A stretch of 38,995 nt of DNA from assembly GCA_017475765.1 (NCBI GenBank), contig JAFVEY010000034.1:1-38995 (forward strand). The letters run 5' to 3'. Each line of letters starts with the position of its first letter. The stretch's first letter is position 1. Below, one piece after another: positions 401 through 36,320 of the stretch. A program made the position numbers and the translations under genes. The notes below the pieces were generated by a model. It saw nothing but the letters and a program-made list of their open reading frames with translations. It searched no databases and had not been told where the DNA came from. This DNA comes from Clostridia bacterium. Lineage in GTDB: Bacteria > Bacillota > Clostridia > Oscillospirales > Acutalibacteraceae.

Positions 401-429
401 TTGACTTATTACTGAAAAACCTTTAAAAT
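401..429 (+). promoter_or_regulatory. Promoter of the vWA/tubulin-like operon
   Basis: TTGACT (401-406) and TAAAAT (424-429) are separated by 17 bases. This is the best promoter upstream of the operon. The leader to the ATG at 522 would be about 85 nt. I see nothing distinctive in 240-400 beyond AT-rich DNA. Confidence 0.55.
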
Positions 430-521: not shown

Positions 522-2732
522 ATGAAAAAAGGATATGCAAAAGTGTTCAGTCTGATTTTGTGCCTTGTGTGCCTGTTTTCATTCCTGCCGCAGACCGCCG
601 GAGCCGCTTCGGGAGATGAGATCCGTGCGGCTAAGAAGATCATCTCGGTTGTCTATGATGATTCCGGAAGTATGCAGGGTGACAGATGGGTGTATACAAG
701 CTATGCCATGCAGGCGCTGACCGCTCAGCTTAATGAGCAGGATGAGCTGTATATTACCTATATGAGTTCTCCGGGGGTGTCATCGGCTGTCGATCTCAGC
801 TCCGGAAAAATCAAGGATTCTGTCAAAAAAATCAGAGAATGGAATAAAGCAGCAGGTACTCCCGAACAGGCAGTAATAACGGCAAGACAAAAGCTGGATG
901 CGCTGGGAGATAAAAACGACACTTCGGCACAGTACTGGCTTGTGATCCTGACAGACGGCGAGTTTCTTGACGAAACCCAGCCGATACAGCAAAGACTGGA
1001 TTTTTATAAGCAGTCTGAAATGCCTAACGGTTCGGGTCTGAATGTTGCCTATCTTTCCATGGGCAAGGAGGCAAAGCCGATTACCGATGACAGGGCAAAC
1101 GGACTGTACGGATTCAGGACATTGAATGATGCCGATATATTCGATACGATGAGCGAAATGTCGAATATCGTTTCGGGAAGGATTGCTGTTGACAGGAATG
1201 ATATCACCCTGGTTGATAATAAGACGGTCAGCTTCAGCTCAAAACTGCCGCTGTACAGTATATCCGTTCTGTCACAGAATTCAAAGGCAGAGGTGACAGG
1301 AGCAAACACAACAGAGGATAAAAATCTGAATCTGAAAAATGTTGACCTTGCCGCCTATTATCCGTTCAAAGACGGTGCGAGCAGTCTGAAGCTGTATGGA
1401 AATGCGGCAGTCATCAGTAAGTCCGAGGGCGGAATCAACAAAATTATACCGGCAGGGACTTATACCATTACCTTTTCTGAGGAGATCAAAGCCGATAATC
1501 TTGTGATCCAGTATGAGCCGGCAATAGCGCTTAAGCAGACGATAACAAAGGACGGCATTGAGATAAGCGATATGAAATCTCTGGAAAAGGGAGATAAGGT
1601 GAGCATATCCATTAAGCCTGTCATTCCGGGAACGGATACGGTGATAGACCCGTCCGATCTGCCGAAGGGACTGACATGGAAGATTGAGTATATTGCGGAT
1701 GACAATACCGTTGCACAGGCGGACGGAACAGATCTCAACGATGTCGAGCTTGTCAACGGCAGGGGCGTGATCAAGGGAACAATGATGATACCGGGCTATG
1801 CACCGTCGGAATATCAGATTGACCTGGATATACCGGAATATGTTTATGATCTGTCGATTGATGTGGAACAGCCCGATAAGCTCTCCTATTTCAGAAATGC
1901 GCTTGAAAGCGGCAGCGAAAACGGAGAGCAGGTCAGATTCTGGCTGAAAAACGAGGGCAAAAGACTGAACAGGGAGGAGCAGGAAAAGCTGGATGTTCAT
2001 CTCGGCATCAGCGACATTGTCTGCGATGCTGGCAATGTCAGCGGCTTTTTTGATACACTCGGAAATGTGCAGGCGGACTGCACACTTGTTTTGAATGATG
2101 ACGGCAGTTACAGCCTTGTTCCAAAGGGGAAGATCGCTTTCACATCGTTTATGATTAAAGCAGGAGATTATGATGTCAAGGTGGTCACATCCAGAGATGC
2201 AGCAATAAGTGCACACGGCAGATTCAGCATTGTTCCGAGACTTGCGGACTGGATCGACCTGATCATACTGCTGCTGATCATCGTTTTTCTGATCTACCTG
2301 ATATTCATCATATTTATTAAATACAAATTCAAGGGTCAGATCGTTCATTATCAGGTGTATAAGCTCCTGAGCGACGGAAGCGGCGTGCTGGACAGATCCA
2401 CCGAATCATCAGAGGAGCTGAAACCGCTCAGCGGACATCTGCTGCTGCCGACAAGGGCATCGTTTATGAATTACAGAGATCTGAAGCTCATTGCAGGCCC
2501 CGACGGTCTTGTTACGGTAACGGGCAAATCCATTGCAAAGATAGCCTATGGCTACAACAATACATCAACAGATCCGAAAAGAGGTCTGGGAAGTATATGC
2601 GACTGTATGACCAAGTGTCAGAATAATGATAAGGATTTTGAAGTGGAGGATCTGGAGCTGTCATCCACACCGATCTATTTCCGACCTGCCAAAACCGGCA
2701 ACAGAATCTGGTGTGTATGGCTTGAAGAGTAA
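522..2732 (+). CDS. Exported, membrane-anchored vWA-domain protein
   Basis: A 736-aa protein. The start at 522 is chosen because AAAGGAG lies 8 bases upstream and the product begins with a good signal peptide (MKK..., hydrophobic core, AGAA-type cleavage region near residue 28). A von Willebrand A domain follows, with a MIDAS metal site DDSGS at 46-50, a candidate Thr at 113 and the TDGEF motif with Asp145. After a long beta-rich middle there is one strong TM helix at about 579-600, then a tail of about 135 residues. The expected topology is vWA outside and tail in the cytosol. vWA domains bind protein ligands through a divalent cation. As first gene of a five-gene operon, 62 bp before the tubulin-like gene, it is a plausible surface sensor or adhesin whose tail contacts the cytosolic partners. 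Function is inferred; the domain is clear. Confidence 0.85.
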   Translation: MKKGYAKVFSLILCLVCLFSFLPQTAGAASGDEIRAAKKIISVVYDDSGSMQGDRWVYTSYAMQALTAQLNEQDELYITYMSSPGVSSAVDLSSGKIKDSVKKIREWNKAAGTPEQAVITARQKLDALGDKNDTSAQYWLVILTDGEFLDETQPIQQRLDFYKQSEMPNGSGLNVAYLSMGKEAKPITDDRANGLYGFRTLNDADIFDTMSEMSNIVSGRIAVDRNDITLVDNKTVSFSSKLPLYSISVLSQNSKAEVTGANTTEDKNLNLKNVDLAAYYPFKDGASSLKLYGNAAVISKSEGGINKIIPAGTYTITFSEEIKADNLVIQYEPAIALKQTITKDGIEISDMKSLEKGDKVSISIKPVIPGTDTVIDPSDLPKGLTWKIEYIADDNTVAQADGTDLNDVELVNGRGVIKGTMMIPGYAPSEYQIDLDIPEYVYDLSIDVEQPDKLSYFRNALESGSENGEQVRFWLKNEGKRLNREEQEKLDVHLGISDIVCDAGNVSGFFDTLGNVQADCTLVLNDDGSYSLVPKGKIAFTSFMIKAGDYDVKVVTSRDAAISAHGRFSIVPRLADWIDLIILLLIIVFLIYLIFIIFIKYKFKGQIVHYQVYKLLSDGSGVLDRSTESSEELKPLSGHLLLPTRASFMNYRDLKLIAGPDGLVTVTGKSIAKIAYGYNNTSTDPKRGLGSICDCMTKCQNNDKDFEVEDLELSSTPIYFRPAKTGNRIWCVWLEE

Positions 2733-2794
2733 ATGATACAGTTGTTTTACGGATATTATACAAATTTATTCTATTTCAGAAAGGGTTGATTTTG

Positions 2795-5700
2795 ATGGGA
2801 ATGAACAGAGTTCCGTCTTTGGTTGTTGGTGTGGGAGGCATAGGCTGCAGAATTGCGGCTGCCATCAGCGATCTTATCAGCGATGAGGACAGGGATTATG
2901 TCGGCTTTGTGGGGCTGGATACCAATGTGGAAGATCTCAAGCCGCTGAAAGCGCACAAAATAAAGACCATACAGACAAGTGATGAACGCAAGGTCAGGGA
3001 TTTTCTGAAGCTTCATCCGGAATATACAAAATGGTTCCCTGTCAACCGCTTTACCGTTGACAGAGGAATGCTCTATGGTGCAGGTCAGATACGCTCCATT
3101 TCAAGACTGGCAGGACTGGCAGCAGAGGAAAGCGGCAATTTTATTCCGATCGAGGAAGAGATCAAAAGGATCCGTGCGAATAAGGGTGACGGCGGAAATG
3201 GCAATCTGACGGTAATGATCGTGGGTTCGATCACAGGCGGTACGGGTGCGGGATTGTTTTTGCAGCTCCCGTATTACATAAGAAAGCTGATGAAAAACAC
3301 AGACGGTCTGGATGCTATTGTTATCAGAGGTATGTTTGTGGGTCCGGATCTGACTGCCAATGTGCAGCCCTCGAAGATCAATAAGGATGCTGTCAGGGTG
3401 AATGCCTATGCCTGCCTGAAGGAGCTTAATGCGCTTTATATGACGCAGAAAATGTCGGAAGATGAGAATTTTATTGAACTCGATTACTATGAAAAGAGTA
3501 CAAGCGAGGAAATGAATGATTCGACCAAGGATTTAAGAGAGGATATCCTTGCTGCCGGGTTGGATGAGTTTGCAGGCGATGACGCTGCAGCAGGCTACGG
3601 CATTGTGGATAAGGATGCAAAAACCCTTGCCGGCAACGGCTCCAGTATACCGTATGACTATATCTATCTGATCGAGGGCAGCTCTTCGGAGGGAAGTGTG
3701 GGCAATGTTTCCTTGTCGAATATTGAAAGACTGGTTGCACAGATGGTGTTCACGCTTATGTTTACGCCTGTGAAGCAGAATGCGCTTTCTGTCGAGGACA
3801 ACATGGTGCTTCAGGATATGGAAAAGGGCGGAATGGGAAGATATTCCGGAGCAGGTCTTTGCAAGCTGGTATTCCCGGCAGATCTGGCGAAGGAATATGT
3901 CACGCTGAGAGTGGTTCGTGATCTTGTGCAGGAAGAATGGATGTATATTGATAAAAGCTATAACGACCAGCTTCTGGATGCACGTGACCGTCAGAAAACA
4001 CAAGGATCGCTGGAGCTGCCGACCCTGAGAACGGCTTATCTGAGCATTTTTGAAAAGGCTGTCAAAGGCGGCGAGGGAAAGCTCGGAAAGCTCTATAATG
4101 AAGCCTATATCGAATCCGAGGATAAACGGATCATCACCAAGTCGGACAAGCTGTTCGGTCTTATCAGGGATCAGATCAGGCAGATAACGGACGGAGAGCA
4201 GATAACGGCTGCCGCTGAGGAGTGTAAGCTCAGCGCTTCCAAAATGAATAACTTCCGTGACGCACAGTCCGAGATAGCAAGAGTGTATGATGCGCTGGAG
4301 GATTACCGCAAGCTGGCAGGCATTGTCATTAATGATAAGAAGTTCGAGATCGCCAATGATGTGTTCCCGCCGAGCTGGAACTCCATGAGAAGCCGTGTTG
4401 ACAGCGAGCTGTGCATATACAGTATGCTGGCAAATGTTCACCCCATCACAGCAAGATTTTTCTGTTATTCGCTTATCAAAGAGCTGGAAAAGAGGATCGG
4501 CGATCTGGAGAAATCGCTTGAAAGCCTGAACCTCGACGAATATCTTGAAAAAGATTTTGACCCGAAGGAAAGCGGTATTCAGCAGCCTGATGCTGTCGTG
4601 GAAAAGCTGGCGGCAAATAAGAACTGGGTCACCAAGCTGCTGGTCAGTGAACAGAAGCAGCTTGTCAAGCTCAAAAGCAAGCTCAATGCGCTGACAAGGG
4701 ATCAGTCTGCAAAAATCACGAAGTTTATTACTGAAAGCCTTGAGCTTTATACCTATAAAACGCTGCTTGACCGCATGGAGCAACTTGCCGAGAATTACAG
4801 ACTGTTTTTCCAGACGATCAGCACCATGATCGAGGAAAATAACGGTCAGATACATAACCTCGAAAATATCCGTATGCCGCTCGGTCAGAAGGGCGTTTAC
4901 TGCTCCAAGGAAGCGTTCTCCGCCATGGCAGCCGAATATAAGGATAATATCGACCTGCCCGATGAAACAAAGAAGGCTATTTTTGAACAGATCTATCATG
5001 TCCTGACAGATGACCTCAGCAGCAGGGGCAAGGAATGGAGCGAAGCTGTCAAGGAAAGAAGAGCATGGGAAAAGAAAAAGACGCTGGAGGGTATTTTCAG
5101 GACAGCGGTGATCGACACCATCAGGACGGATGTCGCAAAGCACGGCATCGGAATTGTGGATATCAATATCCATGAAGCTATGCTCAAGCAGCTGGAGCTT
5201 GAAACGGGAAAAACAGAGGATAACTGTGCCACCTTCAAGGCGGATTCTGTGGAATACATCCGTGGTCTTGTGGAATCCACCATGAAAATGGCAGCGCCGA
5301 TGCTGGCTGTTTCACGCTCGGCAATGGCTGAAAATACGGAAACCGTCTATATGGCGCTGCATCCTGACTGTGCCGAATCACAGATGGGCAAGCCGAGTGC
5401 GGCGGCAACCAAGGAGCTGTATCTTTCCGAAGCAACGGATGCAACGGACGGTGTCAGCGCTGAGGTTCTGATGGATGAGAGCTTCTCACCGTATGAAATT
5501 GTCTGCTACAAGGCAAGACATAAGTTCGTGATCGAACAGCTTATCAAATACCGACCCGATTCCGAAAATGCCAAAGCCTATGAATCAAGGATCAGGGGAC
5601 TGGGCAGACTGCCTGTCAACACAGCGGATCCCGACTCGTTCAAGGTCATCGTCAATCCGCACCTGAACAGATTCTGGCATGAGGAAGGCTATATACCGTC

Positions 5701-6370
5701 AATGTATGAGTCACAGAGAAAAAAGAACAAGTCCGACACGCTGAAAGCGTTTATCTATGCAATGGGACTTGACTGTGCAAAGAGGATCGAGCACCCTGAG
5801 ATCATTGATACAAACGGAAAGGGCAGACTGACATGGTATACCTATACAGCAGGCGGCGCAGCACCTGTCACCAGAGGGGGCAAGCTGATCGGCGATACCT
5901 ATGTTGATTTTTATGAGGCTATCCCGTTCAACAGAGTCATCAAACGATATATCCTTTCAGAAGCCGCCAAAATGCTGGAAACAATGAAGGGCTTTTCACA
6001 GGCGGAAGAGCTCAGCCGCACGATCCTCAGCAACTGGTTTATCGAGGATCTGATACAGTCTCAGCCCGATAGGGACAATGAGTATGATCAGAATATCTTT
6101 GATATATTCCTCGAAATGAGAGATCAGATGAAGATGGAAAAGTGGGCGGAGCTTTTCGACGGTCTGATCGAAACTATATGGGAAATCTGTGCCTATCTGT
6201 TCGACAGCAATGAGATCATGGTCAATAAAGCCGCCGCTGATATCATTGCCCGTATTTATGAGTTCAGCAAAGCCGGTATTCGTGAAAAGGAAGGCACAGA
6301 GCTCAATTACAGCGAGAATTGCATCAAGGAACAGAAAAAACGGCTCCTCGCCAAAAGATACCGCAAATAA
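2795..6370 (+). CDS. Tubulin/FtsZ-like GTPase (Tubulin_2-type), 1191 aa
   Basis: The start is placed at ATG 2795, nine bases after AAAGGG; in-frame TTG codons at 2786 and 2792 are less likely. The first 165 residues carry a tubulin/FtsZ nucleotide-binding layout: a glycine-rich loop GVGGIG (12-17), LDTN (41-44), GAGQIR (95-100) and the tubulin signature GGTGAG (148-153). The remaining ~1000 residues are mostly helical with charged stretches, far larger than FtsZ (about 350-400 aa). I recognise this as the Tubulin_2 type from memory; no search was run. No signal peptide or TM segment is visible, so it is probably cytosolic. It may form a GTP-dependent polymer or scaffold for the membrane proteins encoded on either side. 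It is the second gene of the operon. Confidence 0.8.
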   Translation: MGMNRVPSLVVGVGGIGCRIAAAISDLISDEDRDYVGFVGLDTNVEDLKPLKAHKIKTIQTSDERKVRDFLKLHPEYTKWFPVNRFTVDRGMLYGAGQIRSISRLAGLAAEESGNFIPIEEEIKRIRANKGDGGNGNLTVMIVGSITGGTGAGLFLQLPYYIRKLMKNTDGLDAIVIRGMFVGPDLTANVQPSKINKDAVRVNAYACLKELNALYMTQKMSEDENFIELDYYEKSTSEEMNDSTKDLREDILAAGLDEFAGDDAAAGYGIVDKDAKTLAGNGSSIPYDYIYLIEGSSSEGSVGNVSLSNIERLVAQMVFTLMFTPVKQNALSVEDNMVLQDMEKGGMGRYSGAGLCKLVFPADLAKEYVTLRVVRDLVQEEWMYIDKSYNDQLLDARDRQKTQGSLELPTLRTAYLSIFEKAVKGGEGKLGKLYNEAYIESEDKRIITKSDKLFGLIRDQIRQITDGEQITAAAEECKLSASKMNNFRDAQSEIARVYDALEDYRKLAGIVINDKKFEIANDVFPPSWNSMRSRVDSELCIYSMLANVHPITARFFCYSLIKELEKRIGDLEKSLESLNLDEYLEKDFDPKESGIQQPDAVVEKLAANKNWVTKLLVSEQKQLVKLKSKLNALTRDQSAKITKFITESLELYTYKTLLDRMEQLAENYRLFFQTISTMIEENNGQIHNLENIRMPLGQKGVYCSKEAFSAMAAEYKDNIDLPDETKKAIFEQIYHVLTDDLSSRGKEWSEAVKERRAWEKKKTLEGIFRTAVIDTIRTDVAKHGIGIVDINIHEAMLKQLELETGKTEDNCATFKADSVEYIRGLVESTMKMAAPMLAVSRSAMAENTETVYMALHPDCAESQMGKPSAAATKELYLSEATDATDGVSAEVLMDESFSPYEIVCYKARHKFVIEQLIKYRPDSENAKAYESRIRGLGRLPVNTADPDSFKVIVNPHLNRFWHEEGYIPSMYESQRKKNKSDTLKAFIYAMGLDCAKRIEHPEIIDTNGKGRLTWYTYTAGGAAPVTRGGKLIGDTYVDFYEAIPFNRVIKRYILSEAAKMLETMKGFSQAEELSRTILSNWFIEDLIQSQPDRDNEYDQNIFDIFLEMRDQMKMEKWAELFDGLIETIWEICAYLFDSNEIMVNKAAADIIARIYEFSKAGIREKEGTELNYSENCIKEQKKRLLAKRYRK

Positions 6371-6397
6371 TAAAATAATGAAGGAAGGAACGCTCCG

Positions 6398-8458
6398 ATG
6401 AATGATTGCTTTAGGTTTTTGATAAATGTGGATCAGTGCCTGAATAAGTCGAATTTTGATATATTTTTCTATCAGCTGGAAAGCCGGAAAAAATTTCATC
6501 TGAATGAAGTCAGGCTGTTCGGGGATTCGGGCGGCTCCTCCCTGAAGGCTGCCATTGAGGATATCAGGATGTATCTGAACAAATATTCGTATTTCCTCAG
6601 AAGCTACCGCATTATTGTGACGATGAGAAAGCAGTATGAAAGCAAGCCGAAGGACTGGAGCAGCACATTGCTTTATCGGCTGATACAGCTCAATTATGAG
6701 CTGGAAAATGCAAGGATATTTATTTCATCAAAGGAGAATAATGAAAAGGCGCTGAATCTTGTCATGCTGTATGAAGCCGATATGTCGCTGGAGCTTCCGA
6801 ATATGAGCGAAGCCTATATCAACAGCCAAAGATTTGTTGATGACTGCTGTATGCTTTTTTCCGAGATCGGCATTGACATTTCCAAAAAGGTGACAAGAAA
6901 GTCGATCTCCGAAGCGCTCGATCAATATGAATCAAGGAACGAATATGATGCGGCTTTGTATGAGTTTGTCAGACGTTTTTTACTGCACGGCGGCAGCACG
7001 ATCGATGAGTTCAATATGGACGGCAGCTTTTCAGTCGGCGGGTATGTGATAGAACAGGCAGCGCCTGCCGTTAAAGGAGAGGATACGGCATTCAAGATGC
7101 AGTTTATCGCCTATCTGAAGGAAAGACTGCAGAATTATCAGGTTTATGAAATGCAGATCGATAAAAACGACCGCCGTTCCAATATCCTCTCTCTTCTGAG
7201 GGTGGTCGAATTTATTGAAAGAAGCACGGATATATCCGAATATGACAAGAATGACGGCAGGGTCCTGCCGCTCAGTCAGAGGTGCGTCAATAACTGGAAC
7301 GACATACAAAGTGACGATGGTCTGGAGCAGTATTATTCCTCTATGCTGTATCGGTACAGACAGGGACTTCTGCAGGCAGAAATGGATCTGGAAAATCCGG
7401 AGATCAGCGCTCCCGGCGCAAAGGCGATACCGACTGTGAATATACCGGATGATAACGAAATTGATTCCGGCGAAGGTCCCTTCAGCAGCGATTCGCCCGA
7501 TAAACAGGGTTATGATTATAAGGCTATATTGGAAAAATTCATCTCCAATAAATTCAACACGGCACACCTCGCCGACGATTGGGACAGCGTCTATCAGAGA
7601 CTGAAAAAAAGTCTCGGCAAGATGGACAGGGATCTTCGGGAGTATGCCAAAAAGCTCAGCAGCATCTATTCCTCGGCGCTGGAAAAAAGAAAAAAAGAAA
7701 CTGCCTACTGGAAAAGCAATCATTATATTGCAGACGAAAATTGCGAAAAGCTCCTGTCGGATATAGAGAACAAGCGCACCAAAAGACTTCGTGAGATGCA
7801 GAATCCGCATATTTCTCCGTCACTTAAATTTCAGGATCAGCTGAATATGGAGAATGCTCTTGAACAGGCAAATCTCGACATACATTTCTATATCAGCTCC
7901 ATGAGATCCGTTACCTTTATCAATCTGATCATTCTGATCGCTGTTGTCGCAGTTATCAGCATGGCACATTATACCTTTCTGCAGCCCTATGTGTTTGAGG
8001 AAACGGCTTCTCTCGGAGAGTATCTTGTCTATTTTGCCGCCCTCATTGTGTTCATGCTCTTTACATGGGGAATGCCCCACCGATATTTCCGCAGCAGACT
8101 CAAAAAATGCGTCAGCGGACTGATGGACAGCATGGATGTCTATATCAAGGGTTATTTTGACAAGGCAGAGAATTTTAAAAGATATATCAATCTTCTTAAT
8201 CAGCTCGATTATATCAACCGATACGACGACCTCCTGAACGATGCCAAGCAGCTCAAAAGCAAGCTCGATAAGGAATATCTGTGGCACCGCTATCAGGTCA
8301 AGAGTCATCTGACAAAGCTGAAGTTTTTTCAGGGACTGATTGATATATGCGAGGAAAGACCGGACCGCAGGGAATCTTTGCAGAAAACGCTGCCGGCGGT
8401 GGTGGATGATGAGGTGGCGTCTGTCAGGGACTGTCCGATCTACTGGCCGCAGCATTAG
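6398..8458 (+). CDS. Two-TM, coiled-coil-rich protein of unknown function
   Basis: A 686-aa protein starting 27 bp after the tubulin-like gene, with a purine-rich AAGGAAGGA site upstream. I do not recognise a family. It is strongly helical and charged, with an acidic, Ser/Asp-rich linker around residues 345-375 and a long Lys/Glu coiled-coil-like region at about 380-490. Two hydrophobic segments follow at about 507-525 and 540-558, probably a membrane hairpin. About 125 more helical residues end in an IYWPQH tail. Both large soluble parts would lie on the same side, probably cytosolic because no signal peptide is present. Position and shape suggest a membrane anchor or adaptor for the tubulin-like polymer; this is inference. 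Confidence 0.7.
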   Translation: MNDCFRFLINVDQCLNKSNFDIFFYQLESRKKFHLNEVRLFGDSGGSSLKAAIEDIRMYLNKYSYFLRSYRIIVTMRKQYESKPKDWSSTLLYRLIQLNYELENARIFISSKENNEKALNLVMLYEADMSLELPNMSEAYINSQRFVDDCCMLFSEIGIDISKKVTRKSISEALDQYESRNEYDAALYEFVRRFLLHGGSTIDEFNMDGSFSVGGYVIEQAAPAVKGEDTAFKMQFIAYLKERLQNYQVYEMQIDKNDRRSNILSLLRVVEFIERSTDISEYDKNDGRVLPLSQRCVNNWNDIQSDDGLEQYYSSMLYRYRQGLLQAEMDLENPEISAPGAKAIPTVNIPDDNEIDSGEGPFSSDSPDKQGYDYKAILEKFISNKFNTAHLADDWDSVYQRLKKSLGKMDRDLREYAKKLSSIYSSALEKRKKETAYWKSNHYIADENCEKLLSDIENKRTKRLREMQNPHISPSLKFQDQLNMENALEQANLDIHFYISSMRSVTFINLIILIAVVAVISMAHYTFLQPYVFEETASLGEYLVYFAALIVFMLFTWGMPHRYFRSRLKKCVSGLMDSMDVYIKGYFDKAENFKRYINLLNQLDYINRYDDLLNDAKQLKSKLDKEYLWHRYQVKSHLTKLKFFQGLIDICEERPDRRESLQKTLPAVVDDEVASVRDCPIYWPQH

Positions 8459-8500
8459 CGGAGTATCCGTTTGACAGGTATTGGTTGAGGAGATAAGATC

Positions 8501-11500
8501 ATGAAAATTTTATATTTTATACTGTTTCTTCTTGCTGTTTTCGGGGTGCTTTTCGGTCTGAACAAGCTGATCGTCAAAGCGGCTTACGAGAAAAAGAAGA
8601 GATATCTTCACTGCAGGCTGATCGTGGCAGTTGCTCTGATGGAATTTGTGCTGGTGAATGTTTTTACTTTCACCAATCTGCTCACGCTGATCAACAATAT
8701 CATCAATTCGCAGATCGTATCGGGTATTCTGGATATGATCCTTCCGAACAGGGTATTTTATCTTGTTTATATGCTGCTGGTGCTGCTTATCATCAATCTT
8801 GCGGTAACGATTGCGGTGCTGCTGACGGTGTGGATCACAAAACTGATATTCAAAAGAAAAAGAAAATTTATTGATATTGACGATTATTACGGCTTTTCCC
8901 GTCTGCTGCATTTTCCGTGGATCGCAGCGAATCATTTCTATCAGTATGAGGATGATGAAATTACCCTTACCAACAAGGGTGTTGTCATGGGGATATGGGC
9001 AAAGGGACTGAAGAGAGCATTTCTGCTGCTTTGGGCTGTCGAAGTCATTGTGATGGCATATTCGATACTGTGGGGCGGAGAGGACTGGAACCGCTTTGTC
9101 TATTCTGTGTCCAATTCATGGTATTTTCTGCCGATGGCAGCCTTTCTGCTGACAGAACAGATACAGCTTTTTCTGGAGGCGGATATCTCCCATGAGGCAG
9201 GAACTCTCAGCTCCTGTGATGTTAATATCACCCTTTGCAGAAATGATAACCTCGTCAGGCTGTATGAGGAGATCTTTGTCAATTCGGGCGTTCTTCTGTA
9301 CAGCGAGGACGGAAAGGATCAGCACGGCGAAAGCGACAGCATCTATAATAACGACCTCGGCAATAATCAGCTGGAGGACTGCCGCTATCCCGAAATTCTG
9401 AGCGTGATCTCCAACAGGCTCAGGGAAAGCGGCATCCGCCAGTGCAACAGCTATCAGAATGCGCTTGTCGCTTTGCTCAACGGTCATTCCATCAATATCA
9501 GGGATAACACAACAGGCGAAGCGCTGATCTATATTGCCGCCTATCTGAATTATTATGTTTCTCAGGGCAAGACGGCGCTGGTGCTTTGCAATGACGAAAG
9601 CGAGGCTGTCCATGTCAGGGAAGCTATGATAAAAAAACTGGAGCTGCTGAATAACCTTTGCAGCGTGTGGGATCTCAGCACCATAGAGGATGCCGACAAC
9701 AATCGCCCGATCAATGTGCTTGTCTGCTCATACAGCGATTTTATCACACGCAATATCTTCAATAAAAGAAAGGATTTTATCAACGATCTTTTCTGCACCG
9801 TCATTACGGACGGTCTCGGACTGTTTTCTCAGGACAGCGTTCAGATCGAGCTGCTGTTCAATACGCTCAAATCCGTCAAAATGATGAAACAGTATATTAT
9901 GATCTCGGACGAAAACAATGACGACCTCCGCACAGCACTTGAAAACTGTATTAACCATGAGGTTCAGCCGTTCGCCAATAATATCCGCCATCCGCATACA
10001 GGCATTATGATCTGGAAGGAAGAAAGCTACTATAAGCTGCAGCGTCTGATCGGCATTGGCAGCTCAAAGACCTATTATATCGGTACGGCACTTCCGCTGG
10101 CGCTGGTGGCTGTCAAATATGACGTTCCGTTTGTCAATATCATTCCCAGTCCTGACAGGGGCGACAGCTCCTACTGCGACATTCAGACAGAAAACGGCAA
10201 TGAGATATATAATTTTGTCGGCAGAAAAAACGACCTCAAAGCCCTGATAAGATATAACGAGGACGAGGTCATCAGCCGTGGGGATCAGTCCGTTATCATC
10301 ATTTATGATGAAAATTATAATTTCTTTCAGGCTCTGTGGAAATGGATGAAATACGGCAACGAAAACGGCACGCTGTTTCATGTCATTTCTCCGGCTTATA
10401 TGCTGCGTGAATATTTTGCGGCTAATTTTACCAAAAAACAGTTTATCCTCAAAAACAGCGAATTCAACGCATTCGTTCCGAACAGCACAGCGCTGAAGAT
10501 CAGCCGGATGGCGGTAATGCTCGTTTCATTGTGTGAGAAAGGCCTCACAGAAGAGGAGCTGATGGAAAAATCCGCCGAATACAGATGGAATTACGGCAAT
10601 ATTGAAGAGCTGCTGACCGATTGTCTGAAAATCGTTTTTAAGGATAACGAAATACATAATATTTATGAACGCTTTCATTTTGAAGAGAAAAAGCCCTATA
10701 AGAACGAGATAGACGGATATGTTCCCGTTACCTGCGTCAAAACAACGGATGAGGTGATCAAGAAGCGTATCATGGACAGTATATCGTGCGCCAATCTGAT
10801 CTATAATGACGGTCAGTCAATGAAGCTTTCGATCCTGCGATCCAATGTGTATAATTATTATCTGCCCGGACAGTTCGCTGTGTTTGACGGATATCGTTAC
10901 AGGATTGATTCTATCAGCGATGACGGCAATATCCATGCCGCTCAGATGAATTCCCAGTATCTGCCGCAGTATTATCCGATCTCCGAATTTACCTTTGAGA
11001 ATTACGGCGTGACACAGTCCTGTATTGATACGGGAGAGATCAGTATGAATCTCGCCTGCGCCACCGTGACAAGGCATATATACGGCTATCTGTCCTGCAA
11101 TAACGGCAATAACTTTGCAGATACCGATAATTTCACAATCAACAGTCTCCGTGATATGGACGGAAATGAACTTGTCACAACGCTGAAAAGCGTGAACATC
11201 CTTGAGATCAATATCAATAAGACGATCCTGAAAGGGAAGGCAGAGCAGGCGGCAGCACTTCTTGCCTATATGCTGGGAGAGGTATTCAAGACGCTGTTCC
11301 CGAATAATTTCCAGAATATTTATGCCGTTGTATCGGAAAAATGGGAGGAAGGATTTATCCCCTCGCTGATCAAAAACGGAACGGCAAGTCCGGCAGAGAA
11401 TATTATCAGAAGCGTGATTCCGTGCTGTAATATCGGCAGCAGGGACAGCAATACGGAAAGTATTTATATTATTGAATACAGCGGTGTGGAATTCGGTTTC

Positions 11501-12391
11501 ATCAGAACCATATATCAGAAATATATTGATGTGTTTACCATTCTTCAGGATTACCTGAGCTGGTATCTCGGAAAGGAAGAGGATGCTGCCGACGGCACCG
11601 CACCGGGAAAATATCTGAACTTCGGTTCAGATGAGATCAGCTCCCTGTTCGCTCCAAACGAGCTTCTGGAGCTGCTGACAAAGATCATCCCCAATTATGA
11701 AAAGGCAGCGCCCGGAGAAGTGGAGGATATCACGAAATTTGCCAAGATATGCAGCTTCTGCAAGAAACCGACCCTCAATCCGTTCCAGCTCAGCGACGGC
11801 AGACTGATGTGCGGCTACTGTCATAATCATCAGATCAGCCAAAGGGATGAGATACGGACGCTGTTTACGGATATGGTCAGATTGATGGAAGAGAGCTACA
11901 ACATCAAATTCAGAAAGAATATCCATGTCCGCTTCAAGACCGCCAGCGAGATCAAGGCGGCAGCCTCCGATGAAGGCGGCAGAGTGCTGGGATTTTATGA
12001 ACATTCCAAAAAGGAACTGTGGCTGGAAGCAAGAGGACCGAGAACAGCGATGGAAAGCACCCTTGCACATGAGCTTACCCATTCGTGGCAGTTTGATGAG
12101 CTTGACATTGCTATGCTGAAAAAGCGTATCGGCAATGATAAAATGATAAAGCTGCTGGAGGGTCATGCGAAATTTGTGGAGATAGATGTCATGCGCCGCA
12201 AGAACGAGATCGAATCCGCCGACAATATGCACAGGCTGCTGCTGACGGATAAAAGCATTTACGGAGAGGGCTATCGGTTTGTGATATCCCAGCTTCCGGG
12301 AATGATCGCAGAGGGCAGTCATGTTACCCCGTTTGAGGCAATGAAGAGATTGACACAGCAGCTTCTTGAGGGAAAGGCGGTTATGAAGTGA
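8501..12391 (+). CDS. Membrane protein: decayed helicase, LIM-like zinc ribbon, DA1-like peptidase
   Basis: A 1296-aa chimera. Five hydrophobic segments lie near residues 4-21, 35-60, 85-115, 174-192 and 207-225. A region that reads like an SF2 helicase core follows, but its key motifs are lost: the P-loop position reads NTTGEA (336-341, no GKT/S) and the DEAH position reads VITDGL (434-439). Residues ~745-1026 resemble the C-terminal part of MrfA/YprA helicases, for example an FAVFDGYRYRIDSI segment and a later IYIIEYSGVEFGF segment. Next is a C-x2-C-x16-C-x2-C zinc ribbon (Cys1084, 1087, 1104, 1107) like a LIM module. Then comes a metallopeptidase with HELTH (His1190, Glu1191, His1194) and a likely third ligand Glu1220 in LLEGH. 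LIM plus HExxH is the layout of plant DA1 peptidases. GGAG precedes the ATG. Zinc ribbon and HExxH are certain; the helicase ancestry is pattern-based. Confidence 0.75.
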   Translation: MKILYFILFLLAVFGVLFGLNKLIVKAAYEKKKRYLHCRLIVAVALMEFVLVNVFTFTNLLTLINNIINSQIVSGILDMILPNRVFYLVYMLLVLLIINLAVTIAVLLTVWITKLIFKRKRKFIDIDDYYGFSRLLHFPWIAANHFYQYEDDEITLTNKGVVMGIWAKGLKRAFLLLWAVEVIVMAYSILWGGEDWNRFVYSVSNSWYFLPMAAFLLTEQIQLFLEADISHEAGTLSSCDVNITLCRNDNLVRLYEEIFVNSGVLLYSEDGKDQHGESDSIYNNDLGNNQLEDCRYPEILSVISNRLRESGIRQCNSYQNALVALLNGHSINIRDNTTGEALIYIAAYLNYYVSQGKTALVLCNDESEAVHVREAMIKKLELLNNLCSVWDLSTIEDADNNRPINVLVCSYSDFITRNIFNKRKDFINDLFCTVITDGLGLFSQDSVQIELLFNTLKSVKMMKQYIMISDENNDDLRTALENCINHEVQPFANNIRHPHTGIMIWKEESYYKLQRLIGIGSSKTYYIGTALPLALVAVKYDVPFVNIIPSPDRGDSSYCDIQTENGNEIYNFVGRKNDLKALIRYNEDEVISRGDQSVIIIYDENYNFFQALWKWMKYGNENGTLFHVISPAYMLREYFAANFTKKQFILKNSEFNAFVPNSTALKISRMAVMLVSLCEKGLTEEELMEKSAEYRWNYGNIEELLTDCLKIVFKDNEIHNIYERFHFEEKKPYKNEIDGYVPVTCVKTTDEVIKKRIMDSISCANLIYNDGQSMKLSILRSNVYNYYLPGQFAVFDGYRYRIDSISDDGNIHAAQMNSQYLPQYYPISEFTFENYGVTQSCIDTGEISMNLACATVTRHIYGYLSCNNGNNFADTDNFTINSLRDMDGNELVTTLKSVNILEININKTILKGKAEQAAALLAYMLGEVFKTLFPNNFQNIYAVVSEKWEEGFIPSLIKNGTASPAENIIRSVIPCCNIGSRDSNTESIYIIEYSGVEFGFIRTIYQKYIDVFTILQDYLSWYLGKEEDAADGTAPGKYLNFGSDEISSLFAPNELLELLTKIIPNYEKAAPGEVEDITKFAKICSFCKKPTLNPFQLSDGRLMCGYCHNHQISQRDEIRTLFTDMVRLMEESYNIKFRKNIHVRFKTASEIKAAASDEGGRVLGFYEHSKKELWLEARGPRTAMESTLAHELTHSWQFDELDIAMLKKRIGNDKMIKLLEGHAKFVEIDVMRRKNEIESADNMHRLLLTDKSIYGEGYRFVISQLPGMIAEGSHVTPFEAMKRLTQQLLEGKAVMK

Positions 12392-13428
12392 AACACATTG
12401 TGAACAGGGTATTTTGTCTGATACTGGCGATTTCAGGTGCGCTTGTATTTTCCTCCTGCGGCAATGGCGAAAAGATGAATTCTCTTTTTGAGGACGGCTG
12501 GACACAGTATGCGTCCGGAAAGCAGGAAGAGGATTTCTCTGTCAAAAATACCGGAGAGCGCCTGAAAAAGCTGCTTGATTCCTATTCCGGTTCTTATGAG
12601 ATTCCTTCCGCCAATATGATTGACGATGATGATATTCCCTATTATGAGGATCAGCGCAGAAAAGCCATGGACGGCGATAACGACCAAAGCAGCAGTCCGT
12701 CTGATGACGGAGATATCAGAACCGTGAACAGCGATACGGAACTGATACGGCTGTTCCATGATGCTTATGATAATACGGATGAGTATGTTTCCTTTAAGCT
12801 GGGAAAAAATATGAGCTTTGATGTCAATGAACTGAATTCGATGTACCAGACGCTTGTGAGAGAGGATCCGATTGATGTCAGGGGAGTTGCGTCATGGAAT
12901 TACTGGGTAGCCAATGATGTCTATACCATCAATATCATATATGCGATCGACATTGATGAGTTGAAAAGAATCAAAAAGGAAACTGTACAGCTCGTGGATG
13001 AGGCGGCAAAGGAATTTGACACAGCAGGAAAATCCGAATATGAGATCGTGAAAGAAGTCAATGATTATCTTTGTGACAGAGTGGAATATCCTGATGCAGA
13101 GCCGTATGAAGAGATAACACATACAGCCTATGGAGCGCTCCGCAACGGAAGTGCCGTATGTGACGGTTATTCGTGCGCTGCAAAGCTGATACTGAACAAG
13201 CTTTCCGTAAAGTGCGATATTGTGATAGGCGTATGCACCAACGGCGGAGGCCATGCGTGGAATCTGGTGCAGGTTGACGGAAACTGGTATCAGCTCGACA
13301 TTACATGGAATGACGGCTCTTACAGCCGCAGCGACTACTTCCTCGTGACAGACGACTATATGAAAGCAAGCAGAACATGGGATGAGTCGGAATACCCTGC
13401 CACTCCCACAACCCCTTACGGCCCGTAA
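12388..13428 (+). CDS. Transglutaminase-like lipoprotein
   Basis: A 346-aa protein starting with GTG at 12388, overlapping the previous stop by four bases (GTGA), which indicates translational coupling. The N-terminus is a lipoprotein signal ending at a lipobox-like FSSC near residue 24, so it should be lipid-anchored outside the membrane. An acidic linker follows. The C-terminal half is a transglutaminase-like cysteine peptidase fold with Cys258 (AVCDGY), His289 (GGHAWN) and Asp304 (YQLDITWND) as the catalytic triad. Bacterial members cleave or cross-link proteins or peptidoglycan-associated peptides at the surface. It is the last gene of the operon before a strong terminator and may process or attach a partner of the exported vWA protein. 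The substrate is unknown. Confidence 0.85.
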   Translation: MKHIVNRVFCLILAISGALVFSSCGNGEKMNSLFEDGWTQYASGKQEEDFSVKNTGERLKKLLDSYSGSYEIPSANMIDDDDIPYYEDQRRKAMDGDNDQSSSPSDDGDIRTVNSDTELIRLFHDAYDNTDEYVSFKLGKNMSFDVNELNSMYQTLVREDPIDVRGVASWNYWVANDVYTINIIYAIDIDELKRIKKETVQLVDEAAKEFDTAGKSEYEIVKEVNDYLCDRVEYPDAEPYEEITHTAYGALRNGSAVCDGYSCAAKLILNKLSVKCDIVIGVCTNGGGHAWNLVQVDGNWYQLDITWNDGSYSRSDYFLVTDDYMKASRTWDESEYPATPTTPYGP

Positions 13429-13432
13429 AAAT

Positions 13433-13470
13433 ATCCTGCCGGCGTAGTGTCATTTGCCGGCAGGATTTTT
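13433..13470 (+). terminator. Rho-independent terminator of the five-gene operon
   Basis: A perfect 11-bp stem (13433-13443 with 13456-13466), 12-base loop and T-rich tail, starting five bases after the lipoprotein stop. The 13470-13560 interval after it is very AT-rich with several TATAAT-like boxes, but I could not settle on one promoter for the next gene. Confidence 0.9.
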
Positions 13471-13567
13471 TATTATAAATTTACACTAATTTTATAATTT
13501 GTATCTATAAATTTACTGTATAATTTGTTATAATTAGGATATCAAATCGAAAAGGAGGGCTGCGCTT

Positions 13568-13999
13568 ATGAATCTGTTTTATCTGCTTAAGCCGAAATCG
13601 ACCGTATCCTATCTTTACAAAACAAATACAATACGTCAGGGACTGGAAAAAATGAGGGCGCACGGCTATACCGCCATTCCTGTCTTAGATGATAACGGAG
13701 AATATATCGGAACGGTCAGCGAGGGAGATTTCCTTTGGCATATCCTTCGTTTTAAAAATGACAGCATTAAATTTCAGGAGGATTTCTATATTATAGACAT
13801 CGTGAACGAGGACAGGAATCTGCCTGTGAAAACCGATGTTACCATGGATGAGCTTCTTCTGAGGGTGATGGATCAGAATTTTGTCCCTGTTATTGACGAC
13901 AGAAATATTTTCATAGGAATCGTTACACGAAAGGATGTTATCAAATATTTTTATGACAAGGAGCAAAGCATGATATCCGGATCCGTTATGTCTGTTTGA
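13568..13999 (+). CDS. CBS-pair domain protein
   Basis: A 143-aa protein preceded by AAAGGAGG. It consists almost only of two CBS motifs, at about residues 10-60 (with the GYTAIPVLDDNGEYIGTVS pattern) and 75-135 (NFVPVIDDRNIFIGIVTRKD pattern). Stand-alone CBS pairs bind adenosyl nucleotides (ATP, AMP, SAM or c-di-AMP) and act as energy or second-messenger sensors. No attached catalytic domain is present. It is monocistronic in appearance: a terminator lies upstream and a fresh promoter overlaps its stop codon. The ligand cannot be read from the sequence. Confidence 0.85.
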   Translation: MNLFYLLKPKSTVSYLYKTNTIRQGLEKMRAHGYTAIPVLDDNGEYIGTVSEGDFLWHILRFKNDSIKFQEDFYIIDIVNEDRNLPVKTDVTMDELLLRVMDQNFVPVIDDRNIFIGIVTRKDVIKYFYDKEQSMISGSVMSV

Positions 14000-34532: not shown

Positions 34533-34561
34533 TTGACCCTCGAAAAAGAATATGTTACAAT
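34533..34561 (+). promoter_or_regulatory. Promoter of the second vWA gene
   Basis: TTGACC (34533-34538), 17-base spacer, TACAAT (34556-34561). A weaker alternative lies upstream: TTGTTT at 34494 with TATAAT at 34516. Two start sites are possible. Confidence 0.55.
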
Positions 34562-34585
34562 GATACAAAATATGATTTTTGTATC
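34562..34585. promoter_or_regulatory. Palindrome over the vWA gene start of transcription
   Basis: GATACAAAA (34562-34570) and TTTTGTATC (34577-34585) form a 9-bp inverted repeat directly after the -10 box and five bases before the GGGAGG ribosome site. It could be a repressor operator or an mRNA hairpin that touches ribosome access. Confidence 0.5.
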
Positions 34586-34598
34586 GGGAGGGGTCGGC

Positions 34599-36320
34599 AT
34601 GGCTTTGTTTAAGCGTGAAGAGAAGATCAGAATGTCGGAGGAGCAGTTTGAGGAACTGATTCAATTTTATAAAAAACTGGGGTTTTCTTCGTCACAGTCA
34701 AAAAAACTGGCAGGAAGCTGCTTCGGCGCAAAGGTGACAGCTGATAAGAATGTTTCCTATAAGGCAGATTGGCAGTTCCGGCGTGAGGCAAAGGAAATGC
34801 CCCTTGGAATGGGTGCTGCTTTGGGATCGGGTTTCAGAAGCTTCAAGGCGACAGCTCCGATGGCGATCTGTCCGGAGCCTTTGGAGGATTGCTGTGCAGC
34901 TCCGGTCGAAGCGCCGATGCCGTCTGCTGCGGAAGAATTCAATGCGGCTGAAACACATGACGCACCCGAAATAGAAAATGCCAGTCCTCTTGACTCACCG
35001 CAGATCATTTTTTCGGCAAATGTCAATACGGCTTCATGGTCGTATTTAAGGAATAACATTAAAACGGGAAGGCGTATCGACAAGAGCTTTGTGCGGATCG
35101 AGGAGATCATCAATTCTTATCCGTATAAGCTGAAAAAGCCAAAGGGTGAGGATCTTTTTTCTGTGAATATCGAAAGGGGAGACTGCCCGTGGAACAGGGA
35201 AGCCGAGCTGCTATTTGTCGGTCTGAAAGGAAAAAAGGCAGATAAGGATATCAGACAGAATATCGCCTTTCTGGTGGATGTTTCGGGAAGCATGACCGAC
35301 AGATGGGTGCTGGTGCAGATGTCAATGATGGCGATTATCAGCAAGCTCAAAAAGGGCGATGTCATGTCGATCATTGCCTATTCTGATGATACGGTGACGG
35401 TTGCCGAAAAGATGGAATGCGGCAATATGGATAAGTGTATCAAGGCTGTTCTGTCGATCGACGGTATCGGAGGATGCACCAACGGCAGCGAGGGTCTTGA
35501 AAATGCTTACTCCTATCTTGCGGACAATTTTGACGAGAACGGCAATAATCGTATCTTTATCTTTACGGACGGAGATTTTAATTTCGGTGTTACCTCTGAG
35601 GGAGGTCTTGCGGAATATATCCGCCAAAAGAGAGAAACGGGAATCTATTTGTCGATTGTCGGATATGGAAGAGAAAACTTCAAGGACAATAAAATGGAGG
35701 CTCTTGCCAGAAACGGAAACGGCAATTATACGTTTATTGCCAATCCGAGCGATATTCTGGAAACGCTTTGGGAAAAGCTGGTGTCGAATCTTGTGACCGT
35801 TGCAAAGGATGTCAAGATATCGGTAGAGCTGAATCCGCATTTTGTAAAGGAATACCGCCTGATAGGATATGATGCAAGGGTTCTGACACAGAAGGAATTT
35901 TATGACACGGAAAAGGCTGTTGACGGAATAGGTTCGGAGCATAATGTTGCGGCGCTGATAGAAATAAAGCGTGGAGAGGCGGTCAGAAGCTATTCTTCAA
36001 GATATGTAAGTACGAATGCGGTTTCTAACGATCAGGAATTCGCATTTATCGAGATACATTACAAAACCCCCGATGACGAAAACAAGGTCTTTACCCGTGC
36101 CGTTACCATTGGAGAGCTGGACGGTGCAGGAGATAAAAATATGGCTGTTGCATCGCTTCTTGCCGCTTTCGGGCTTTATCTGAGAGAGTCGGCATATAAG
36201 GGTGAACTTGACAAAGCGATGCTGAATTCGATGCTGTCCGCTCTTGACAAGAATGAGCAGATCAATACCAAAGAAAAGGACAGTCATTTCGATATTATCA
36301 GGAAATATCTGAAATCATAA
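34599..36320 (+). CDS. vWA-domain protein, YfbK-like, apparently cytosolic
   Basis: A 573-aa protein. The start is ATG 34599, eight bases after GGGAGGGG; in-frame TTG 34533 falls in the promoter. A helical N-terminus (MSEEQFEELIQFYKKLGF) and an Ala/Pro/Glu-rich linker lead to the YfbK-type N-terminal motif (VNTASWSYLRNNI, VRIEEIINSYPY). The vWA domain has MIDAS DVSGSM, a Thr in IGGCTNGSEG and the FTDGDF motif. A C-terminal beta-rich domain follows (about 400-570). YfbK of E. coli is an exported lipoprotein, but no signal peptide or lipobox is visible here, which is unusual. The protein probably binds a partner through its metal site. Relation to the vWA protein at 522 is only domain-level. 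Confidence 0.85.
   Translation: MALFKREEKIRMSEEQFEELIQFYKKLGFSSSQSKKLAGSCFGAKVTADKNVSYKADWQFRREAKEMPLGMGAALGSGFRSFKATAPMAICPEPLEDCCAAPVEAPMPSAAEEFNAAETHDAPEIENASPLDSPQIIFSANVNTASWSYLRNNIKTGRRIDKSFVRIEEIINSYPYKLKKPKGEDLFSVNIERGDCPWNREAELLFVGLKGKKADKDIRQNIAFLVDVSGSMTDRWVLVQMSMMAIISKLKKGDVMSIIAYSDDTVTVAEKMECGNMDKCIKAVLSIDGIGGCTNGSEGLENAYSYLADNFDENGNNRIFIFTDGDFNFGVTSEGGLAEYIRQKRETGIYLSIVGYGRENFKDNKMEALARNGNGNYTFIANPSDILETLWEKLVSNLVTVAKDVKISVELNPHFVKEYRLIGYDARVLTQKEFYDTEKAVDGIGSEHNVAALIEIKRGEAVRSYSSRYVSTNAVSNDQEFAFIEIHYKTPDDENKVFTRAVTIGELDGAGDKNMAVASLLAAFGLYLRESAYKGELDKAMLNSMLSALDKNEQINTKEKDSHFDIIRKYLKS

Follow-up and report, generated by a model that had tools for sequence, protein, structure and literature searches.

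What might five adjacent genes do together when they encode an exported protein, a tubulin-like GTPase, two membrane proteins, and a transglutaminase-like lipoprotein? The genes lie near the start of contig JAFVEY010000034.1 of a Clostridia bacterium of the Acutalibacteraceae (GenBank assembly GCA_017475765.1), of which we analyzed positions 1 to 38,995 on the forward strand, a stretch of 38,995 nucleotides that we call the window. We propose that the products of genes 1 to 4 may assemble in the membrane as a single complex through which a signal from outside leads to proteolysis within the cell, and we give this reading a probability of about 0.4. It starts from what the computation supports, i.e., a four-gene block, the identities of the domains, the loss of the helicase motifs, a mostly intact peptidase motif, and a likely topology.

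The operon is real. Five co-directional open reading frames (ORFs) occupy positions 522 to 13428, with intergenic gaps of 62, 27, 42, and -4 bp, as described in a previous sequence-only reading of this DNA. The first of these gaps presumes the ATG at 2795 as the start codon of gene 2; the ribosome-binding-site-like sequence AGAAAGGG lies upstream of it. The same reading gave the genes a shared promoter and a shared terminator. An intrinsic terminator does follow gene 5 (Table 1), even if the output of a simple terminator scan lacks it. A single promoter is plausible, and we put it no higher because the scan that gave the promoter-like site returned 42 sites when 25 were expected.

To assess conservation, related loci were gathered via the tubulin alone. 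From species genomes scanned with a tubulin alignment, 295 relatives were obtained; we kept the 80 best and examined their surroundings together with those of loci found earlier. In a quick tree of 94 tubulin rows, the window falls within a set of 86, which is split from 8 other rows of the class by a branch of 2.56 (Shimodaira-Hasegawa approximate likelihood ratio test, SH-aLRT, 99); the tree program warns that long branches meet at this split. The neighborhood counts cover the 86 loci and omit the eight far tubulins. L028 and L034, duplicates of L123 and L054, were left out of both the tree and the counts.

We found a vWA gene immediately upstream of the tubulin in 66 of the 72 loci having at least 2.5 kb of upstream sequence, and gene 4 at most three genes downstream in 66 of the 70 loci having at least 5 kb on that side. 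The four loci without gene 4 are three Bacteroidota and one Ectobacillus. A gene of the size of gene 3 lies between the tubulin and gene 4 in 63 loci, and the median gaps across the block are 27, 22, and -4. At the level of genomes, Tubulin_2 was identified in 14 of the 391 genomes of the class at E <= 0.001 (11 exceed the cut-off), and the profile of gene 4 matches six of the 391, the window's own genome included. Five of these six also have Tubulin_2, for a chance expectation of about 0.2, and the sixth has a partial match to gene 4 only, in a genome with no Tubulin_2 match. A chance neighborhood is thus untenable, because the genes are co-conserved across loci found by the tubulin and also co-occur in genomes, and we rejected it. 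The expectation that all five neighbors travel together is borne out for genes 1 to 4, which are a conserved block. Among the 66 gene 4 loci, 17 encode a transglutaminase-like domain such as that of gene 5 in a gene of its own, and 5 have it joined to the C-terminal end of gene 4; in the other 44 it is unseen, in counts that are limited by the many contigs stopping shortly after gene 4. Hence, the core has four genes, and gene 5 is an accessory to it.

According to the record titles, most carriers belong to the Clostridia and Bacillaceae, and there are two Erysipelotrichaceae and two Coriobacteriia. Sutcliffiella horikoshii and Neobacillus niacini are culturable species that have genes 1 to 4. 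Single loci with gene 4 are assigned to Treponema, Rhodothermia, Myxococcales, and a rumen "Proteobacteria" bin, and many carriers are metagenome bins. One locus labelled Methanobrevibacter (L056) nests among Lachnospiraceae in the tubulin tree and was probably misbinned.

Table 1. Features of the operon, in positions of the window.
Feature	Positions	Strand	Remarks
Promoter-like site, TTGACT-17-TAAAAT	401..429	+	consensus match only, 10/12
Gene 1, exported vWA protein; signal peptide, one late transmembrane segment, tail of ~130 residues	522..2732	+	
Gene 2, Tubulin_2 (FtsZ-like 1) GTPase with long C-terminal region	2795..6370	+	
Gene 3, N-terminal alpha/beta domain, long helices, two transmembrane segments	6398..8458	+	
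Gene 4, predicted membrane pseudo-helicase fused to zinc module and metallopeptidase	8501..12391	+	
Gene 4, transmembrane region, about five segments, predicted N-out/C-in	8501..9175	+	loop charges, 68 homologues
Gene 4, MrfA/YprA-like (DUF1998) helicase fold	9233..11689	+	
Gene 4, site of lost Walker A	9506..9532	+	G[KR][ST] in 0/68 homologues
Gene 4, site of lost DExH	9803..9826	+	DEx[HD] in 0/68 homologues
Gene 4, CxxC..CxxC module	11750..11821	+	two CxxC in 59/61 rows alignable at the peptidase site
Gene 4, HELTH metallopeptidase motif	12068..12082	+	HExxH in 55/61 alignable homologues; PF20573
Gene 5, transglutaminase-like lipoprotein, accessory	12388..13428	+	PF01841, lipobox-like N-terminus
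Intrinsic terminator, 3' of gene 5	~13433..13475	+	-24.1 kcal/mol, z -5.66, 0/200 shuffles equal it

In gene 4, the sequence-only reading had seen transmembrane (TM) segments, a zinc ribbon, and an HExxH peptidase, all of which we recovered (Table 1), and had overlooked its largest domain. The roughly 800 residues between the TM helices and the zinc/HExxH end take the fold of the MrfA/YprA helicases (Foldseek E 2e-20). A profile comparison with this family gave E 5e-7 over 656 aligned columns, with clean controls, and the RecA1-RecA2-OB-CON-DUF1998 architecture is shared over 580-604 aligned residues, while sequence profiles of DUF1998 and MZB give no match to gene 4. The domain differs from YprA/MrfA helicases, and from what is described of DISARM, Dpd, Druantia, and ARMADA, by the loss of the ATPase motifs in all 68 homologues (67 distinct sequences, as L028 and L123 are one record), by its anchor of about five TM segments, and by a peptidase in place of a nuclease. 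In the window, no cysteine cluster is found at the aligned end of the helicase fold, and the CxxC..CxxC module lies just beyond. The loss of the DUF1998 cysteine cluster has been reported for Dpd in a preprint surveying the YprA helicases (Bell et al. 2025, PMC12458937), whose main text does not contain the words "tubulin," "vWA," "transmembrane," or "metallopeptidase."

The end of gene 4 matches DUF6782 (PF20573) with 28.8 bits for a cut-off of 27, and shares with these putative metallopeptidases both HExxH and a downstream EG motif. Among seven scanned relatives, DUF6782 was below the cut-off or unmatched in all seven. Plant DA1 peptidases have LIM zinc domains ahead of the peptidase, and gene 4 had been called "LIM/DA1-type." This label found no Pfam support: the profile search, with matches reported to E 1 and HMMER filters that drop most of those above 0.1, gave no DA1 model. 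The count of HExxH excludes 7 of the 68 rows, which have no alignable region. In L092, L105, and L117 the HExxH-bearing module is in the next ORF; the same is true of L110, which is counted among the six rows without the motif. L043, L055, L114, and L121 have no HExxH module in their ORFs, the last of which stops at the end of its contig.

Gene 4 has five hydrophobic segments in 40 of 67 members, with a range of 3-7 (L105 omitted). Among the 68 homologues, the first and third loops carry positive charge and the second and fourth a slight negative charge. Together with the commonest count of five segments, these charges place the N-terminal end of the protein outside and its long C-terminal portion in the cytoplasm. 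An outside N-terminus also fits a Treponema contig (L105:15716-20800) where gene 4 has a subtilase-like domain, recognized by eye, before the TM region. The metallopeptidase is then probably cytoplasmic. Judging from sequence and fold comparisons, gene 4 encodes a predicted membrane-anchored pseudo-helicase that carries a metallopeptidase.

The other core genes fit the trans-envelope system that had been suggested for this locus, with a vWA domain outside followed by a late TM segment and a tail, a cytoplasmic tubulin, a gene 3 product with two TM segments, the multi-pass product of gene 4, and an exported gene 5 product. The match of gene 1 to the Pfam VWA family is below the cut-off (E 0.056), and the assignment, already made in the sequence-only reading, rests on the residues of the metal ion-dependent adhesion site (MIDAS), which are invariant in a 13-row alignment with relatives, and on a family profile. 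DxSxS is present in 61 of 65 vWA proteins, and an N-terminal hydrophobic segment plus a late TM segment in 53 of 62 members of the gene 1 family, with a median tail of 129 residues. One of the four proteins missing DxSxS is encoded by an unrelated gene of the window, a second vWA gene of the YfbK type at 34533-36320 (YfbK_C E 7.8e-31), outside the operon. Gene 2 is, as previously stated, a Tubulin_2-type GTPase (PF13809, E 1.3e-48) and the only Tubulin_2 match in its genome. The GTP loop GG[TS]G[SAT]G is found in all 76 tubulin members of at least 800 residues, and the product has no clear TM segment and is predicted to be cytoplasmic. Gene 3 had been described as a two-TM coiled-coil protein; the two TM segments stand and recur in 39 of 40 aligned members. 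Its AlphaFold2 model (predicted local distance difference test score 84.5) has an alpha/beta domain at residues 1-306 and then long helices. Profile searches assigned it no family, and it has no confident structural relative.

To the sequence-only reading, no characterized system of this composition was known. Yet, vWA genes next to genes of the FtsZ-like 1 family, along with lineage-specific membrane proteins, were described by Makarova and Koonin in 2010 (PMC2875224). That paper shows an FtsZ-like protein with an N-terminal GTPase domain, a coiled coil, and a helical C-terminus, adjoined by a vWA gene and membrane proteins, as in the window. P-loop GTPase, protein kinase, or OmpA genes are said there to be frequent, not universal; none of these has a Pfam match in the window's five genes or gene 6. 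The pseudo-helicase with its peptidase is not described in the sections of the paper's text to which the comparison was restricted. A later study (PMC9871819, 2023) regards Tubulin_2 and these FtsZ-like proteins as the same family, with Tubulin_2 treated as an outlying group.

The 2010 paper proposed a role in membrane remodelling. Applied here, the tubulin-like protein would polymerize at the inner face and, with the products of genes 1, 3, and 4, shape or bud the membrane. The tubulin family is indeed the same, with a vWA partner and membrane proteins, and gene 3 consists mostly of long helices and two TM segments, with bacterial dynamins among its weak structural matches. However, these matches score within the range of unrelated helical bundles, and neither the conserved peptidase nor the conserved dead helicase is explained by remodelling. 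A reviewer of that paper doubted the proposal too. We consider it unlikely.

In firmicutes and actinobacteria, tubulin and vWA genes also occur together within the DO-GTPase/GAP1-N2 conflict systems (Kaur et al. 2020, PMC7159879). These resemble the window in having a tubulin with a C-terminal coiled coil and vWA proteins, one with its vWA domain outside the membrane, and in being found in firmicutes. Unlike them, the window operon has no Pfam match to DO-GTPase or GAP1 and no second tubulin. Two relatives of the class, L042 (with a DO-GTPase) and L040 (with a GAP1), resemble the DO-GTPase/GAP1-N2 type, and their tubulins lie across the long branch (SH-aLRT 99). The window's own genome (G000) has a separate DO-GTPase/GAP1 cluster at ~12.5-27 kb of contig C20, with three DO-GTPase2 matches (one below the cut-off) and one GAP1-M. 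The general kind of operon has thus been described already (2010, 2020), and the branch with gene 4 looks like an undescribed variety of it. Within the literature that could be reached, from which supplements and most subscription papers are excluded, we found no account of the architecture of gene 4 or of experiments on the operon. Nor did we find that the role of the Tubulin_2 (FtsZ-like 1) proteins, which were noted in 2010, had been studied experimentally.

How could these parts work together? We infer a single complex in which GTP-dependent assembly would control the peptidase. The MIDAS of the outside vWA domain would bind a ligand and so sense something outside, and the tubulin-like protein, whose assembly on the inner side of the membrane would depend on GTP, would then assemble differently. 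The dead helicase fold, which would still have both RecA-like lobes and a canopy that could open and close, might relay the change and uncover the HExxH peptidase, and a cytoplasmic substrate would be cut. Where present, the transglutaminase-like enzyme outside (or, in the Treponema contig, the subtilase-like domain) may process an outside partner. By analogy with related tubulin/DO-GTPase/GAP1 systems, the purpose is probably stress or conflict (immune-like) signaling. We find it rather doubtful that this amounts to an undescribed class of GTP-controlled outside-in proteolytic signaling, in which the YprA/MrfA fold has moved to the membrane, without its ATPase and probably without DNA binding, and serves as a mechanical relay from the tubulin-like GTPase to the metallopeptidase. 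The pseudo-helicase would show a fold known from DNA repair and phage defence serving as a membrane scaffold. A fixed four-gene set with a recognizable peptidase is also a concrete handle, since one catalytic residue can be changed and the substrate traced.

Several observations weigh against this reading of an outside-in proteolytic complex. The stretch after the fifth TM segment of gene 4 is negative (mean -3.0 in the 68 homologues), so that the inside placement depends on the earlier loops. The peptidase motif is lost in some lineages. Transglutaminase-like domains fused to gene 4 are predicted inside and the free ones outside, and a simple two-sided scheme fails there. As for the immune role, we found no defence gene among the ten flanking genes of three close loci, for which we rejected a defence island, and in five Neobacillus/Bacillus loci the flanking genes belong to common families, pointing to a single stable position in the chromosome. 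Because of these last two observations, the genomic context gives the immune role no support.

The same context bears on a more direct form of defence, in which the membrane-bound YprA-type fold would sense or grip incoming DNA, from phages or otherwise, and release the peptidase. The patchy distribution of the tubulin, with Tubulin_2 in 13 of 99 near genomes (own genome included), is what such a system might show. Besides the flanking genes, however, the charge of the helicase-like region argues against it. This region is acidic in all 68 homologues, with a mean of -3.5 per 100 residues (-5.7 to -1.5), as opposed to -0.4 (-1.5 to 2.4) in ten whole MrfA-like proteins. Moreover, PADLOC gave no match for the window's five genes, gene 6, or seven core proteins of relatives, and no relative of gene 4 was found in a pattern scan of viral contigs or, with the L072 protein as query, in plasmids. 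On the latter result we also rejected a cargo of phages or plasmids, for a search that did not extend to a phage collection; searches with the tubulin returned one distant viral contig and four distant plasmid records. A grip on incoming DNA is, in our opinion, quite unlikely.

Gene 5 is, as formerly proposed, a transglutaminase-like lipoprotein (Transglut_core, E 2.7e-10), and most free copies begin with a lipobox-like motif or else a hydrophobic segment. Of 22 transglutaminase-like domains, 12 match a strict regular expression for the catalytic triad; by eye, most of the others keep the cysteine motif and HAWN, with the exception of L058 and L115. The predicted enzymes that had been noted at opposite ends of the series are real in the window, whereas HExxH is usually missing where the transglutaminase-like domain is fused to gene 4 (L029, L033, L037, L089, and L115): it is absent from four of these five fusions versus two of the 56 unfused alignable rows, one of them L110. 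Of the four, L029, L033, and L037 keep the CxxC pairs and L115 has no recognizable module. We rejected the rule that fusion always means the loss of HExxH, as this is a trend only and all cases belong to one tubulin subclade.

Other genes recur downstream in some relatives. Eleven loci have, after gene 4, a gene for a coiled-coil protein (at L081:19794-22799, for example), and these proteins form one family. Seven of the 11 copies exceed 500 residues, all with an intact Walker A, and three scanned long copies match the FtsK domains of EssC/EccC-like type VII ATPases with E about 1e-20, far below the curated cut-offs. In PADLOC, the FtsK-type ATPase of L081 matches SspH, mad8, and mad3. One could thus imagine that the complex exports or assembles surface proteins, with the FtsK/EssC-type ATPase as its motor where present, and the vWA and free transglutaminase-like parts lying outside would suit this role. 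Yet, four of the 11 copies have only 195-221 residues and no ATPase, the window operon does not contain the gene, which was seen in a minority of loci (although many contigs stop soon after gene 4), and no same-strand family of small proteins recurs in at least three loci. Of the explanations weighed here, secretion or surface assembly seems to us the least likely.

Another recurrent membrane protein, of 532-775 residues, lies after gene 4 or gene 5 in six loci (L057, L080, L088, L102, L106, and L128); the copy of L057 had no NCBIfam match and that of L128 no Pfam match. In the window, the operon terminator is directly followed by a gene for a small protein with two CBS domains (13568-13999), whose best NCBIfam match, below the cut-off, is the c-di-AMP-binding protein CbpB.

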